64,000 bases of DNA from Planctomycetota bacterium (lineage in GTDB: Bacteria > Planctomycetota > UBA8108 > UBA1146): positions 1-64,000 of the forward strand of contig JADHSM010000016.1 in assembly GCA_016776905.1 (NCBI GenBank). Reading direction: 5' to 3'. Each line of letters begins with the position of its first letter. Within the stretch, counting starts at the first letter, position 1. This document shows, piece by piece, positions 12,064-21,092 of the stretch. Both the position numbers and the translations under genes were made by a program. Under the pieces are notes generated by a model. The model worked only from the letters and a program-made list of their open reading frames with translations, ran no database searches and was not told the origin of the DNA.

Positions 12064-12149
12064 GGTTGTCCTCGCCTACTTCAGTGGCTAGCATCCCCAA
12101 AAGGGAAGCCTTGAGCCCCCGTACCCCGATCTCCGGAAGGGAGACCGCA

Positions 12150-12578
12150 ATGCCATATCCAGAAGAACTCGTCACACCGATGAGAAAAGAACTCACCGAC
12201 CATGGTGTCACAGAACTAAAGAGTGCAACGGAAGTGGAAGACTTTCTTTCCACTGACGAAACCTCTTTGGTCATCGTCAATAGCGTCTGTGGCTGTGCAG
12301 CAGGTGGAGCACGTCCAGGAGCCGCTCTTGCTATCCAGTCAGAGACACGCCCAGCTCGTGTCGGAACTGTCTTTGCAGGTCAAGACGTCGAAGCCACGCA
12401 GAAGGCCAGAGATTTTTGTGCACAGGTTCCCCCGAGCAGTCCTTCCATGGCTCTCTTCAAAGGAAGCGAACTGGTCTGGTTCTTGCCTCGTCACATGATT
12501 GAAGGCAGAGATCCACAAAGCATTGCTTTCGATCTCGTACAAGCTTTTGAAGAACACTGCTCCAGTACTGCGAGCTGA
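12150..12578 (+). CDS. Bacilliredoxin (BrxA/BrxB family)
   Basis: This 142-residue protein matches the BrxA/YphP family in length and motif: VNSVCGCAAGGARPGAALA gives the CGC redox motif and the family's following ARP stretch, then FAGQDVEATQKARDF and PPSSPSMALFKGSELV. In Firmicutes these proteins remove bacillithiol from mixed disulfides; whether this organism makes bacillithiol cannot be seen here. The ATG at 12150 is preceded by AAGGGAG and gives the normal family N-terminus (MPYPEELVTPMR). An upstream in-frame start at 12066 would add residues not expected in the family. Its place after a metal permease fits a role in thiol or metal stress. Confidence 0.9.
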   Translation: MPYPEELVTPMRKELTDHGVTELKSATEVEDFLSTDETSLVIVNSVCGCAAGGARPGAALAIQSETRPARVGTVFAGQDVEATQKARDFCAQVPPSSPSMALFKGSELVWFLPRHMIEGRDPQSIAFDLVQAFEEHCSSTAS

Positions 12579-15375: not shown

Positions 15376-16305
15376 TTAACCGAGGATTTCCTGACCCAAA
15401 GCACTCGCAATGATGGCGACTCCTACCTCAGCGGTTCTATTCGACTGATCTAAGACCGGATTGACTTCGACCAATTCAAGCGATCCCATCTTCTGAGTTT
15501 CGGCGACCATCTCCATCGCCAGATGTGCCTCTCTATAGGTAAAGCCACCCTCGGTTGCAGTTCCCGTACCAGGAGCAAACCGAGGATCGATGACATCGAT
15601 ATCAAAACTCACATGAAGATGATCGCAATCAGAGAGAATATACTGAATAGCTTCTTCTAAGATCACAGGCAATCCTCTTCGGTCGACATCCTCCATCGTA
15701 TACGCCTGAATCTCCGACTCTTTGATGCGACGCCGTTCACCGGGATCGAGATCTCGGAGTCCGATTTGAACGATGCGGTGAGAATCTAGCTTCTGACCGA
15801 CATAACCAATCTCCGTCAGTCCCTTCGGTCCCTTTCCTAACAGGGAAGCCATCGGCATCCCGTGAATGTTACCGGTTGGAGTGGTCTCTGGTGTATTAAG
15901 ATCCGCATGCGCGTCAAACCAAAGCACTCCGATTTTGGGACTCGAGTCCTTCTTCTTTGCCTTCAAATGTGAAGCCACACCACTAATCGTCCCTACTGCA
16001 ACGGAATGGTCTCCTCCCAAAACGAGAGGGAAATGATTCCTGTCGAGAGACTCGTGAACCTTGTCACACAAATTTTGACACGTCGTCGAAACGACATTGA
16101 GATAGCGTTGTGTGGGATCTCCCGGATCTTCGGATTCAGGATTAGGAACAGGTATATCGCCGGAGTCGATGACAGGCAGTTCTATTCTCTCCAAGGCAGC
16201 TGCCAACCCGGCAATACGCAAGGCTGAAGGTCCCATAGAGACTCCTCGTCTCCCGGCACCATGGTCGAGAGGAACTCCTATTAACTCTATCGGGTCAGCA
16301 CTCAT
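15376..16305 (-). CDS. rocF: Arginase
   Basis: This 309-residue enzyme hydrolyses arginine to ornithine and urea with a two-manganese centre. The metal-site motifs are all present: GGDHSVAVG near residue 98, WFDAHADLNTP near 128, GNIHGMPMA near 143 (the arginase form, rather than agmatinase) and VSFDIDVIDP near 232; EVNP near 279 supplies the conserved Glu. The start ATG has AGGAG upstream and overlaps the stop of the selenoprotein candidate by 4 bases (ATGA), so the two are translationally coupled. Arginine could serve as nitrogen source or ornithine supply. Confidence 0.93.
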   Translation of the reverse strand: MSADPIELIGVPLDHGAGRRGVSMGPSALRIAGLAAALERIELPVIDSGDIPVPNPESEDPGDPTQRYLNVVSTTCQNLCDKVHESLDRNHFPLVLGGDHSVAVGTISGVASHLKAKKKDSSPKIGVLWFDAHADLNTPETTPTGNIHGMPMASLLGKGPKGLTEIGYVGQKLDSHRIVQIGLRDLDPGERRRIKESEIQAYTMEDVDRRGLPVILEEAIQYILSDCDHLHVSFDIDVIDPRFAPGTGTATEGGFTYREAHLAMEMVAETQKMGSLELVEVNPVLDQSNRTAEVGVAIIASALGQEILG

Positions 16306-17348
16306 TTCGAATCTCCTTTGAGTTCTTCTCTCAAACTTGAAAGACGACTACTCATACGATTGATACGAGGTTTCAGATCCGGACGTGATCCAAATGCCCT
16401 TCGATAAATCTGTAAGGATTCTTCAGCAACCTTTGGATCCTTTTTCGAAATGGCTCCATCGAAGACCAGTCTCCAATAATCAGAGAAAAGACTTATTCTC
16501 GCATCGTTCAAGCGAGTTCCATCCATGTAGAGATCGTACATTTCCAATGAGACGTTCAAATATAAGATCTTCCGACCTTCAGCATCACTCGCGCGCGCTT
16601 CTCGAACATAGTTTTGAAGAATTTTATTGATCGGCTGGTAGGCACTCCAACGCTGGTATCTCTCCAAAAGATTCTGATCCACACCAGTGACCTGAGACGC
16701 TTTCTTTAAAGCTTCACGTGTCGATTCTTTAATCTCCATGATGGCTTCCAAGAGCAAGAGACTCGCCTCAGAAGCGGAGGCTTCTGCGGATCCTGGCTCA
16801 GCACTTTTGACCCGTGCTCTCACTTTGACTAATTCAGAAGCCACTTCCACAGCAGCCCGAACTCGTTTTTCAGCATCGGGCCGGAAGTTCCCCCCCGTAT
16901 CATTTCGAAGGATGACCTTTCCATCGGCATCCATCACTACGGTTGTGGGAAACGATCGGGCTCCGATTTCTCTCAACAATTCCTGATCTGGCTTATCCTG
17001 AAGACGTGCACTGATGTTGACGTAGGGAACGAAATCTCCCGACGCCATCTTTTTCCACCAATCGGACTGGAGAGGACCCCCCTCCAAAACTTTACAGGGC
17101 GGTCATGGCGAATAAGAGCGTGTGAAATAAGCCACGATGGGAAGATTATCCCGTCGAGCCCTTTCTATTGCCGCATCGAGGGTTCTCTCCCACTTCACGG
17201 CCTTTAAAAACGCGGATTCCTGCTTTTTCTTCCACCGGCTTTCCAATTCTTCCGGGCTTTGCCCTTCGAGCATCGAAGTGGAAATCAGGCTTACAGGCAT
17301 CAAGATCAATAACCAACACAACCATAAAGGGTTTGATCGCATCATCAT
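16302..17348 (-). CDS. Thioredoxin-fold selenoprotein candidate with UPPC motif
   Basis: Read with the TGA at 17103-17105 as selenocysteine, this is one 348-residue protein. The ATG at 17348 follows GGAG by 5 bases and starts a signal peptide (MMMRSNPLWLCWLLILMPVS). A Thioredoxin_7-like domain follows: AAIERARRDNLPIVAYFTRS, then SYSP-U82-PPC85-K, DFVPYVNI, and the cis-proline loop ARSFPTTVVMDADGKV. The C-terminal 200 residues are helical, with a TPR-like end. The TGA lies exactly at the first Cys of the expected CPPC, the frame is open on both sides, and a SECIS-like hairpin follows. Read without Sec, there are two useless halves. It would be a periplasmic thiol/selenol oxidoreductase. A point mutation or sequencing error is the alternative. 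It overlaps rocF by 4 bases. Confidence 0.85.
17067..17087 (-). promoter_or_regulatory. Bacterial SECIS-like hairpin
   Basis: Counted from the base after the in-frame UGA, bases 17-35 of the mRNA (17086 down to 17068) form U-G-G-A-G-G-G-G / loop GGU / C-C-U-C-U-C-C-A: eight pairs with one G-U, and a further U-G pair can close the base. The 3-base apical loop is at positions 25-27. Bacterial SECIS elements are hairpins just after the UGA, with a small loop that carries a G in its first positions at roughly 16-37 bases from the UGA; this one meets all points. SelB would bind it. Folding was done by eye. Confidence 0.8.
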
Positions 17349-17473
17349 TTGGACTCCAATCTCTTCACCGTCCTCGTGTTCCGAGATCGGTGGCAGGTCG
17401 CTACAGGTTAGCATACCTTCATAAAAACAGGGCGACATCCACGGGAGGGCCCCAGAGGAAATCGAGGACCGAT

Positions 17474-18085: not shown

Positions 18086-19930
18086 TTGCCCCCGACAAAA
18101 TCGCCATCCAGAAAAAAGACGGCCAAAAAAGCCGCTAAGAAAACTGCGAAGAAAACTGCGAAGAAAAAGGTAGCTGGTAAAGCCACCAAGAAAAAAACTT
18201 CTCGATCGCCCAGTAAAAAGGCATCGAAAAATGGCCGCAGTAGCAAGGATTCTCATCAGCAGGCTGATCTGTTTTCAAGATCATCGGCTTCAGATAAGAA
18301 GAAGTCCACGAGCAAAAAAAAGGTGACTTCAAAAAAGACTCCTGCGAAAGCCAAGAATTCCAATACCACCAAAGCGGAGATTCTTGCTGCGAAGCAAAAA
18401 GACATTTCCGTCAGTGAGTTCTTCGCTAAAAACAGACACCTCTTGGGATTTGACAGTCCTGCGAGAGCTCTTCTGACAACCGTCAGAGAAGCCATCGATA
18501 ACTCTCTGGATGCCTGTGAAGAGGCTGAGATTTCCCCAGAAATCTATCTTGAAGTCACTGCTATCAGTGAAGATCAACACAAGATTATGATCCGGGATAA
18601 TGGGCCAGGAATTGTCAAAGAACAGTTACCCAAGATTTTTGGTCGATTACTTTACGGATCCAAGTTCCATGCCCGAAAACAAACACGGGGACAACAAGGC
18701 ATCGGCATCAGTGCGGCAGGAATGTACGGGACGCTCACCACAGGAAAACCGATGACCGTGATCAGCAGAATTTCCAGAAGGAAACCTGCGATCGAAGTCA
18801 CACTCGCTATCGATATGGCAAAAAATCAGCCCGTCGTCAAAAAAGAGCGTGAAGTGGAAGTCGATTGGTCTCACGGAACCGAAGTGCACATTGAACTCGA
18901 AGGGACTTACAAAAAAGGTAAGCACTCCATCGATGCATTCCTTGAGCAGGTATCCTTGGCGAATCCTCATGTCGAGCTGACCTACATCAATCCAGTCGAC
19001 GAAGAGCCCATCATTTGGAATCGCGTCACCAAGCATCTCCCTGAGCCTCCACTCGAAATCCTTCCCCATCCTCATGGCGTCGAATTGGGAATCCTGATGC
19101 AGATGATGAAGGAAACAAAATCCAGGACAGTCAGCGGCTTCCTGTGCAGCGAATTTTGCAGAGTAACCCCAAATGTCGTGAAGAAAGTCCGTGAAGAAAC
19201 AGAAGCGCTGGGCAAGGACGTCGACACAGACCGACAACCTCGTCGACTCTCTAGTGCAGACGTCAAAATCTTACATAAAGCCATCGAGAACACAAAAATG
19301 ATGGCCCCCCCTACAAATTGCCTCTCTCCCATCGGAGAAGAACTGATGGCAAAAACGCTGACTCGAAACTTTGATCCGGAATTGGTGATCACCGTAACGA
19401 GACAACCGGCGGTATATCGGGGTAATCCTTTTCAGGTTGAAGCCGGAATCGCCTATGGAGGAGAACTCCCGGGTGACGATCTCGCTTCCATATTCCGATT
19501 TGCGAACAGAGTTCCATTGCAGTACGAGCAAGGAGCCTGCGCCATCACACAGTCCATCGTGGCTTCCCCATGGAGAAACTACGAAGTCCAACAAGCCAGA
19601 GGCGCATTGCCAACCGGCCCACTAGCAGTTCTGGTTCATATCGCCAGTGTCTGGGTCCCCTTCACTTCAGAAAGCAAGAAAGCTGTGGCGGGGTATGACG
19701 AAATCTTGAAAGAGATGCGTTTGGCCATCATGGAGGCCGGTAGAAAACTGGCGACTCATCTGCGAAAGAAAAGAAGATTAGCAGATGCTGAGCGTAAAAA
19801 AGACTACATCAAAAAGTATATCCCCCAGATCGGAATCGCTCTGCAGGACATACTTGATTTGAGCGATCAACAGAGAACCGGAGCAGAATCAAAACTCGCA
19901 GACGTTCTCGAGCGTAGTAGGAAGATGTAA
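18086..19930 (+). CDS. top6B: DNA topoisomerase VI subunit B with histone H1-like tail
   Basis: This 614-residue subunit is the ATP-binding half of topoisomerase VI, which relaxes and decatenates DNA. The GHKL ATPase motifs are clear: [13 protein letters not shown] near residue 133, IRDNGPGI near 170 and [14 protein letters not shown] near 203; the transducer domain follows to about 540. Residues 1-95 are a Lys/Ala/Ser tail (KKTAKK repeats), like histone H1 or bacterial H1-like proteins, and not part of the usual subunit. The start is a TTG with a strong GAGGAGG just upstream. Topo VI is mainly archaeal and plant; bacterial cases are scattered. The top6A gene follows after 10 bases. Confidence 0.93.
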
Positions 19931-19940
19931 GGAATCACTC

Positions 19941-21092
19941 ATGGCAAAAAAAGTGACTCGCGCATATCTCGACAAAGTTCGTCGGGACAATGCTCGCAAA
20001 GACAAAAAAACAATCTCTAGCATCGAAAATGCAGCGGACGAAATCTACAAGAAGATTCTCAAGCGAGGAAAGCCCGCGATGCGCTTTCCCGTTCGTAGTC
20101 TGAGCAATGTCTCCTACGACAAGAGAAAAGGGTATTTGGAAATAGGCAAAGCCCGCAAAGAACGCACCCTGACTGTAAACACCGTGAAAGGCTTCGCCCA
20201 AACACTACGAATGATGGGACTCTCACGAGATTTGGTGAGAAGTAATGACTTCGCTACAAAAAGGGACGTCTATTATCAGTCAAAGAACTGGGAAGACGCC
20301 AAGTTCGAGGACCAGACAGAATCAGACACTGTCATGGATGACATCGAAGCGTTGTTTTCCGTCGACGACGTGAGCAGGGAACAACTTCGATTCGTACCGG
20401 ACGAACACGGCGGAGCAGTGGCTGGAGACTTGGTTGTCCTCGATCCCGATATTGAATCTGGAGAAGTAGAACGCATCGATTGCACCCGATTCGGAAGCGG
20501 CGCTTACACGATTCCCACTTCTGTAGAACATCTCAGCTTTGAGACGAATGCTAAATTTGTCCTCGCCATCGAAACGGGCGGTGTCTTTCAAAGGCTACAA
20601 AGTCATAAATTTTGGAAGACGGCCAATTGCATCCTTATCAATATGGCGGGAGTACCCACTCGGTCGACTCGAAGATTCATCAGAAGACTGAGTGAACAGG
20701 CGAAAATCCCGGTCTATGCGTTTGTTGATTGTGATCCTTACGGAATCTCAAATATCTACAGAACACTTAAAGTGGGATCGGGAAATGCGGCTCATATCAA
20801 TAGGTTCTTTTGCGTTCCCAATGCGACATACCTAGGTGTCACCCCCCAGGACATCATCGACTATGAACTTCCAACCCATCCCTTGAAAGATGTCGATATC
20901 AAAAGAGCCAAGGACGCCCTTAAGAATGATCCGTTTTTCAAAAGCAAAAAATCGTGGAAGTCTGCCATCGAACAATTGTTGTCCATGGGAGTACGTGCTG
21001 AACAACAGGCATTGGCCATGTGGGGCCTGAACTACGTCATAGAAGAATATTTGCCCCGAAAACTGAAGAATCCGGGTATATTCCTACCCTAA
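19941..21092 (+). CDS. top6A: DNA topoisomerase VI subunit A (Spo11-like)
   Basis: This 383-residue subunit cuts both DNA strands through a tyrosine. The active-site motif TKRDVYYQSKNW gives Tyr112 as the likely nucleophile (Tyr111 next to it), and the Toprim domain follows with Glu in FVLAIETGGVF and the DxD in VYAFVDCDPYG, which bind Mg2+. Length and order fit archaeal Top6A/Spo11. It lies 10 bases after top6B in the same direction, so the two form the A2B2 enzyme from one transcript. The ATG at 19941 follows an AAGGAAT site. No odd residues were seen at the active site. Confidence 0.94.
   Translation: MAKKVTRAYLDKVRRDNARKDKKTISSIENAADEIYKKILKRGKPAMRFPVRSLSNVSYDKRKGYLEIGKARKERTLTVNTVKGFAQTLRMMGLSRDLVRSNDFATKRDVYYQSKNWEDAKFEDQTESDTVMDDIEALFSVDDVSREQLRFVPDEHGGAVAGDLVVLDPDIESGEVERIDCTRFGSGAYTIPTSVEHLSFETNAKFVLAIETGGVFQRLQSHKFWKTANCILINMAGVPTRSTRRFIRRLSEQAKIPVYAFVDCDPYGISNIYRTLKVGSGNAAHINRFFCVPNATYLGVTPQDIIDYELPTHPLKDVDIKRAKDALKNDPFFKSKKSWKSAIEQLLSMGVRAEQQALAMWGLNYVIEEYLPRKLKNPGIFLP

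Follow-up and report, generated by a model that had tools for sequence, protein, structure and literature searches.

The gene with an in-frame TGA

The window analysed is the whole 64,000 nt stretch at positions 1 to 64,000 of contig JADHSM010000016.1 (assembly GCA_016776905.1, Planctomycetota bacterium). On its minus strand, an arginase gene is preceded by a gene for a thioredoxin-like protein that appears to contain selenocysteine (Sec), and the stop codon of the first gene overlaps the arginase start as ATGA. The features of the locus are as follows:

17354..17357, minus strand, GGAG, possible ribosome-binding site preceding the ATG run that begins at 17348 (from sequence inspection)
16302..17348, minus strand, putative Sec-thioredoxin gene, 348 codons plus stop, with an in-frame TGA at codon 82
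17265..17348, minus strand, residues 1-28, hydrophobic segment at the N-terminus and likely signal peptide (from inspection; model confidence is low there)
16809..17213, minus strand, thioredoxin-fold domain, approximately residues 46-180 (from the predicted structure and structural matches)
17103..17105, minus strand, TGA codon 82, probable Sec and first residue of the U-P-P-C site (TGA conserved, Cys in homologues)
17067..17087, minus strand, SECIS-like hairpin, 9 bp stem 17087-17079/17075-17067, GGU loop 17078-17076 (24 nt past the UGA)
16305..16808, minus strand, predicted all-helical C-terminal domain, approximately residues 181-348 (TPR-like arrangement weakly supported)
15376..16305, minus strand, arginase gene (TIGR01229, 309 bits, over the cut-off), a conserved neighbour in orthologues

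From the ATG at 17348 to the TGA at 16304-16302, a frame of 348 residues is open once the TGA at 17105-17103 counts as one residue. An earlier, sequence-only reading of this DNA described two minus-strand frames joined in frame by that single TGA, with S-Y-S-P encoded before it and P-P-C-K after it, and the sequence agrees on both points (RSYSP-U-PPCK in the joined frame). The joined protein has two cysteines, C11 within the signal-like segment and C85. The same reading held that the downstream half lacks a plausible start, which proved incorrect: TTG 17087 and the ATG at MASGDF are candidates, and database protein P0002 begins at that ATG. As 7 of the 12 ORFs listed for the window end at TGA, this codon has not been wholesale reassigned there.

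Compared with the orthologue from the same genus (L023), the numbers of synonymous and non-synonymous codon differences are 29 and 24 of 80 codons before the TGA, and 106 and 84 of 266 after it. Third-position changes are in excess in both parts (46 versus 26 and 15 before the TGA, 155 versus 71 and 50 after it). Judged from the codons of this one same-genus orthologue, constraint at the protein level is seen on both sides of the TGA.

The structure of the joined protein was predicted at a pLDDT of 91.2 and places residue 82 immediately ahead of the active-site helix; the nearest folds are those of AGR3, DsbH and DsbD-gamma. Though the match to Pfam Thioredoxin_7 (PF13899) is, at 25.5 bits, below the gathering cut-off of 27, the thioredoxin fold is supported by the model and the structural matches. 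Family N-termini are hydrophobic and, on inspection, several have A-X-A-like ends. The protein is confidently predicted to consist of a signal-like segment, a thioredoxin domain of the DsbH/DsbD-gamma type and a helical domain. A TPR-like C-terminal part had been suggested from the sequence. A helical domain is indeed predicted, and the TPR identity is weakly supported: when the domain was predicted and structure-searched alone, the structural matches were weak, and in 23 family members it had no Pfam match at E≤0.01. Structure searches with the predicted model returned no convincing solved structure covering both domains.

Conservation of the TGA among relatives

The joined protein was used to search 59 genomes, including its own, and 62 matches were found in 32 of them. 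An alignment was made of 51 matches, the window gene included, leaving out 11 that were weak or fragmentary. In the residue-82 column, 44 of the 51 rows have TGA, though the sequences are related and row counts are not independent trials, and all 44 have Cys three residues later. Of the other seven rows, five have CxxC, four of these being remote thioredoxins; C..S and W..S occur in one row each. The identical TGA is present in independently assembled genomes, the closest stand-in for the proposed resequencing of this codon.

A profile of 35 members was then run against 294 Planctomycetota genomes with a completeness of at least 80 % (E≤1e-20), giving 109 matches (hand count) in 68 genomes. 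At least one TGA is contained in 103 of these matches and none in six, the position of the TGA having been read in the fetched ones only. CxxC is present in two of the six TGA-less matches (L128, L067); in L066, L118, L152 and L155 the site is degenerate at one position or both. A second read-out covered 65 further loci (57 + 8 from the phylum scan). It included 65 rows with an active-site TGA, two of which are the same gene, and the resulting 64 genes encode UxxC in 63 cases and UAPA in one; four rows without the TGA have CPPC (L128) or degenerate sites (three rows). At the 108 UGA sites read, no other stop codon was found in place of UGA.

Homologues with Cys at the residue-82 position, or with an in-frame TGA there, had been proposed as a check on the sequence-only reading, and both kinds were found. 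Cys is present in eight homologues (P0016, P0017, P0018, P0023, P0024, P0025, L067 and L128), and the gene thus has an in-frame UGA where homologues have Cys, which is a criterion for bacterial selenoproteins. Two database proteins, P0019 and P0020, have Ala at both active-site positions, and the sites of L118, L152 and L155 are, as noted above, degenerate; family members of this kind have perhaps retained a binding role.

The genome that includes the window encodes a second protein of this type at C6:211136-212080 (L051:3104-4321, minus strand), which is 35 % identical and has its TGA in APUPPC. A separate record, JAACCY010000007.1 ('Planctomycetia bacterium'), is 97 % identical in the window protein. 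The 14 closest database proteins (P0002-P0015) begin after the UGA, as judged from the full sequence for seven and from length and the missing site for the rest. Among the matches listed in a database profile search (E≤1e-10) there were 19 proteins, none longer than 261 aa and one of them named ('hypothetical protein').

A conserved hairpin downstream of the UGA

The published bacterial SECIS model, as set out in PMC13188914, has a loop of 3-9 nt, a stem of 4-16 bp, a G in the first two loop bases, a spacing of 16-37 nt and an energy of ≤ -7.5 kcal/mol. The window hairpin agrees with this model on all five points (3 nt GGU loop, 9 bp, 24 nt, -12.1 kcal/mol), as do 42 of the 43 rows in the hairpin alignment, from which the remote member L047 was excluded; L065 misses at -6.9 kcal/mol. 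All 43 rows have an uninterrupted stem of 6-11 bp, a loop of 3-5 nt and a G in the first two loop bases, with the hairpin starting 14-18 nt and the loop 23-25 nt after the UGA. The stems vary in a compensatory manner among rows (GGAGAGUG/CACUCUCC, GGAGAAGA/UCUUCUCC and AGAACGC/GCGUUCU).

Because the arms of the hairpin are coding, synonymous-codon shuffles were used as the control. The mean stem length in 36 distinct rows was 8.1 bp versus 3.9 bp in the shuffles (23 of 36 at p≤0.05), and in the energy version of this control the mean z was -2.07 over 44 rows, 26 of them at 0.05 or below. With the geometry fixed beforehand from the 43-row alignment, 58 of the 64 further genes have the required stem, G and energy, and 43 of the 64 are at p≤0.05. 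Counting against the hairpin, six of the 64 fail, L125 and L148 outright with 2 bp. In the seven TGA-less rows, the best stems are 1-3 bp in six and 6 bp in L045.

The most stable local fold in the window gene also counts against the hairpin: it pairs bases of the UGA itself (z -1.76) and is more stable than the conserved structure. Hence, of the SECIS-like hairpin claimed earlier, for which no coordinates were given, a conserved structure at 17087-17067 can be upheld, but it is not the most stable fold locally. The fold nearest the UGA was rejected as the conserved SECIS, as it is not the best fold in most relatives while the downstream hairpin recurs. An Rfam scan of the window brought only a tRNA-Asn to threshold.

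Selenocysteine machinery and an in-frame TGA in DsbD

The genome (2.92 Mb in 26 contigs, 94.49 % complete) carries selA, selD and a tRNA-Sec gene (anticodon TCA in the gene, UCA) in a row on contig C6, with selB further along. All four components that the sequence-only reading had proposed to look for are thus present, as is expected for a bacterial selenoprotein. The selD gene has an in-frame TGA of its own, in AGUAAK, at L017:1531-1533 on the plus strand (G000:C6), with a hairpin downstream whose loop starts with GGU. Among the genomes compared, SelA is over the cut-off in 23 of the 26 with the UGA gene and in 23 of the 33 without it; this association is not significant (p 0.12), and SelA co-occurrence was rejected as proof of Sec decoding. 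Three genomes (G007, G012 and G048) carry the UGA gene with SelB, but no SelA, over the cut-off, SelB having been examined in seven genomes and the window's own.

A search of the same genome for a periplasmic electron donor found one DsbD_TM match. The frame includes DsbD_N and DsbD_TM, both over the cut-off, and then stops at FTGHT-TGA-QNC, the expected active site of the gamma domain:

L156:1095-1093 (G000:C24), minus strand, TGA at the DsbD gamma site (FTGHT-U-QNC), in the only DsbD detected in the genome

Past this TGA the same frame encodes a thioredoxin-like domain, which scores 26.7 bits against Thioredoxin_7, slightly less than the cut-off of 27. When this piece was compared with the 59 genomes, 35 genomes matched and 32 of the 38 matches had a TGA. 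Of 30 DsbD loci read, 27 rows have the TGA and 26 of these have UxxC in the FTG-type or an equivalent site, the exception being L178. UxxC was verified in this way in 26 genomes including the window's own (25 of 58 relatives), a count that leaves out unread TGA-bearing matches in G005, G018, G027, G033 and G054. The hairpin of the window genome's DsbD, with its GGU loop 24 nt after the TGA, has all the required features, though at that one geometry the same is true of only 3 of the 27 rows, which counts against it.

Both the Sec-thioredoxin and a verified Sec-DsbD were found in 19 of the 59 genomes, the Sec-thioredoxin only in seven, a verified Sec-DsbD only in seven and neither in 26 (Fisher p 8e-5, with kinship ignored). 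The cd02953 label on listed UxxC selenoproteins we take to denote DsbD-gamma. Sec-DsbD is probably of a known kind, because PMC2398784 and PMC13188914 already include UxxC selenoproteins of the 'thiol disulfide interchange' type.

Relationship to known proteins

None of the NF or Pfam models was over its cut-off for the window protein. Against the DsbH model (NF043050; PDB 2ju5), which has 166 positions, it scores 24.3 bits for a cut-off of 190, and it has an extra helical domain and UxxC by way of the TGA. The DsbD gamma domain (PDB 1uc7, 2fwf, 4ip1) belongs to a membrane protein that also contains DsbD_N and DsbD_TM, whereas the window protein has neither. It resembles the VPGUxxT thioredoxin-like selenoprotein (NF041383), with a weak alignment over residues 50-171, but reaches 25.4 bits against a cut-off of 275 and has S-P-U-P-P-C in place of the VPGUxxT motif. 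The Trx7/PDZ selenoprotein (NF041199) is of the Thioredoxin_7 type and was matched weakly by two of the 35 family members; the window protein had no match to it at E≤1 and no PDZ among its Pfam matches. According to Table 1 of PMC13188914, NF041199 is a CxxU protein, and it has PDZ, in contrast to the UxxC and helical domain found here. Among the Cys homologues, P0016 has a PDZ domain. In the CnoX/YbbN chaperedoxin (PDB 3qou), a thioredoxin domain is followed by a helical repeat domain, an arrangement that the window protein may share, and CnoX was the second Foldseek match (E 3.4e-4, rmsd 19.8, TM 0.24). However, CnoX is described in PMC8129009 with an SxxC site and a clear TPR domain, while the window protein has a signal-like segment and UxxC.

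As the sequence-only reading had stated, thioredoxin-like UxxC selenoproteins are a known type: 'Thiol:disulfide interchange protein' and Trx-like UxxC selenoproteins sharing this fold are tabulated in PMC13188914 (Table 1) and PMC2398784. The family may overlap with 'Trx-like 2' or 'Trx-like 3' of PMC2398784. What is seen here in addition is the helical C-terminal domain and a TGA-dominant spread through a phylum. No paper on this family was recognised in the literature searched, the scope of which stopped short of Haft and Tolstoy 2025 and of supplementary tables (such as S9 of PMC4807772, planctomycete selenoproteins). The word stem 'planctomycet' is absent from PMC13188914, PMC12013277, PMC9312934 and PMC2398784.

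Decoding and function

Taken together, the machinery genes, the homologues with TGA or Cys and the conserved hairpin support the Sec incorporation proposed from the split frame, and it is very likely that UGA 82 is decoded as Sec. That the gene at 17348-16302, with its UGA read as Sec, encodes an oxidoreductase that is thioredoxin-like, is predicted to be exported and has a U-P-P-C site is a reading to which we assign a probability of roughly 0.8. The chance that a Cys codon was mutated to or misread as TGA, in a dead or mis-assembled gene, is negligible: related Cys homologues do exist and the draft assembly consists of 26 contigs, but the TGA at codon 82 is not due to chance, as 44 of the 51 aligned rows and another 64 genes have the same TGA, which largely refutes this explanation, and the codon differences point to constraint on both sides. 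If UGA were decoded as an ordinary residue such as Trp or Cys, through a code change or near-cognate read-through, the frame would equally be open, yet this is very improbable in a genome with the full Sec machinery, in a window where seven of 12 listed ORFs stop at TGA, and for a TGA that occupies a Cys position and is followed by a conserved SECIS-like hairpin. It is similarly hard to credit that the locus produces an 81-residue exported peptide and, by a restart downstream of the UGA, a second protein. Gene calls have this form, the database entries P0002-P0015 beginning after the UGA, and the ATG at MASGDF is available; however, two products would mean a thioredoxin fold interrupted at the active site, the Cys homologues are single chains, and the codon-82 TGA is conserved and never exchanged for another stop.

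The earlier suggestion of a coupling to arginase holds in so far as the adjacency is real. Arginase is directly downstream in all 10 orthologous loci with continuing contigs (L022-L029, L032 and L033; the contigs of L030 and L031 end inside the gene and were not counted), and also in L063, from another family. At the other loci searched, for most of which the flanks covered 1-1.5 kb, no adjacent arginase was found, and the link is nearly confined to the orthologous group. Being nearly clade-limited, it is weak evidence of function, and we read it as a conserved neighbourhood that does not itself establish one. A cytoplasmic selenoprotein that is a partner or regulator of the co-encoded arginase, which this adjacency and the stop/start overlap would favour, is unlikely; the in-genome paralogue L051 is flanked by one ORF resembling an ECF sigma factor and another resembling HflX, both named by inspection, and the signal-like N-terminus would place the protein away from a cytoplasmic arginase.

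If UGA 82 is decoded as Sec, SelB with Sec-tRNA-Sec at this codon would bind to the hairpin, the GGU loop of which is 24 nt further on, and Sec insertion would allow the 348-residue protein to be completed. Inspection of the N-termini predicts export by the N-terminal segment, and outside the cytoplasm the protein may act as a disulfide reductase or isomerase. Following thioredoxin-fold chemistry, Sec 82 would attack the substrate disulfide and Cys 85, the sole cysteine beyond the signal-like segment, would resolve the mixed selenenylsulfide; the helical C-terminal domain may bind clients or partners. We infer a role as an exported thiol-disulfide oxidoreductase fed by Sec-DsbD. Because the gamma domain of the genome's own DsbD also has an active-site TGA, this protein is predicted to re-reduce the Sec-thioredoxin in a relay from cytoplasmic thioredoxin to the DsbD membrane part, Sec-DsbD-gamma and then the Sec-thioredoxin. 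Against this relay, 7 of the 26 genomes with the Sec-thioredoxin are without a position-verified Sec-DsbD.

The broader proposal, to which we give even odds, is that extracytoplasmic thiol reduction in planctomycetes runs on selenium, from Sec-DsbD to an expanded, Sec-dominant family of exported thioredoxins with a helical domain (up to four per genome), the rare non-Sec members in the phylum scan being more often degenerate than simply Cys. If the reading of the gene as a selenoprotein is right, a selenoprotein family across Planctomycetota, in which Sec-type genes are the rule (TGA in 103 of 109 phylum matches), is truncated at the active site by gene calling, and protein sets hence lack its redox function. 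Together with the TGA-containing DsbD, it would allow a direct test of a selenium-based relay across the inner membrane, and it raises the question of why an exposed compartment should retain Sec.

Other genes near the locus

A block of genes for topoisomerase VI B, NUDIX, the Sec-thioredoxin, arginase and a Band-7 protein recurs in close relatives. Topoisomerase VI B/A pairs are unusual in bacteria. In the window the B and A genes lie at 18086-21092 (plus strand), and the B gene is conserved beside the locus in relatives. A Bacilliredoxin-type protein (PF06491 Disulph_isomer, 186 bits) is encoded at 12066-12578 (plus strand), a few kb from the Sec-thioredoxin gene and after an ArsP_1-type permease.
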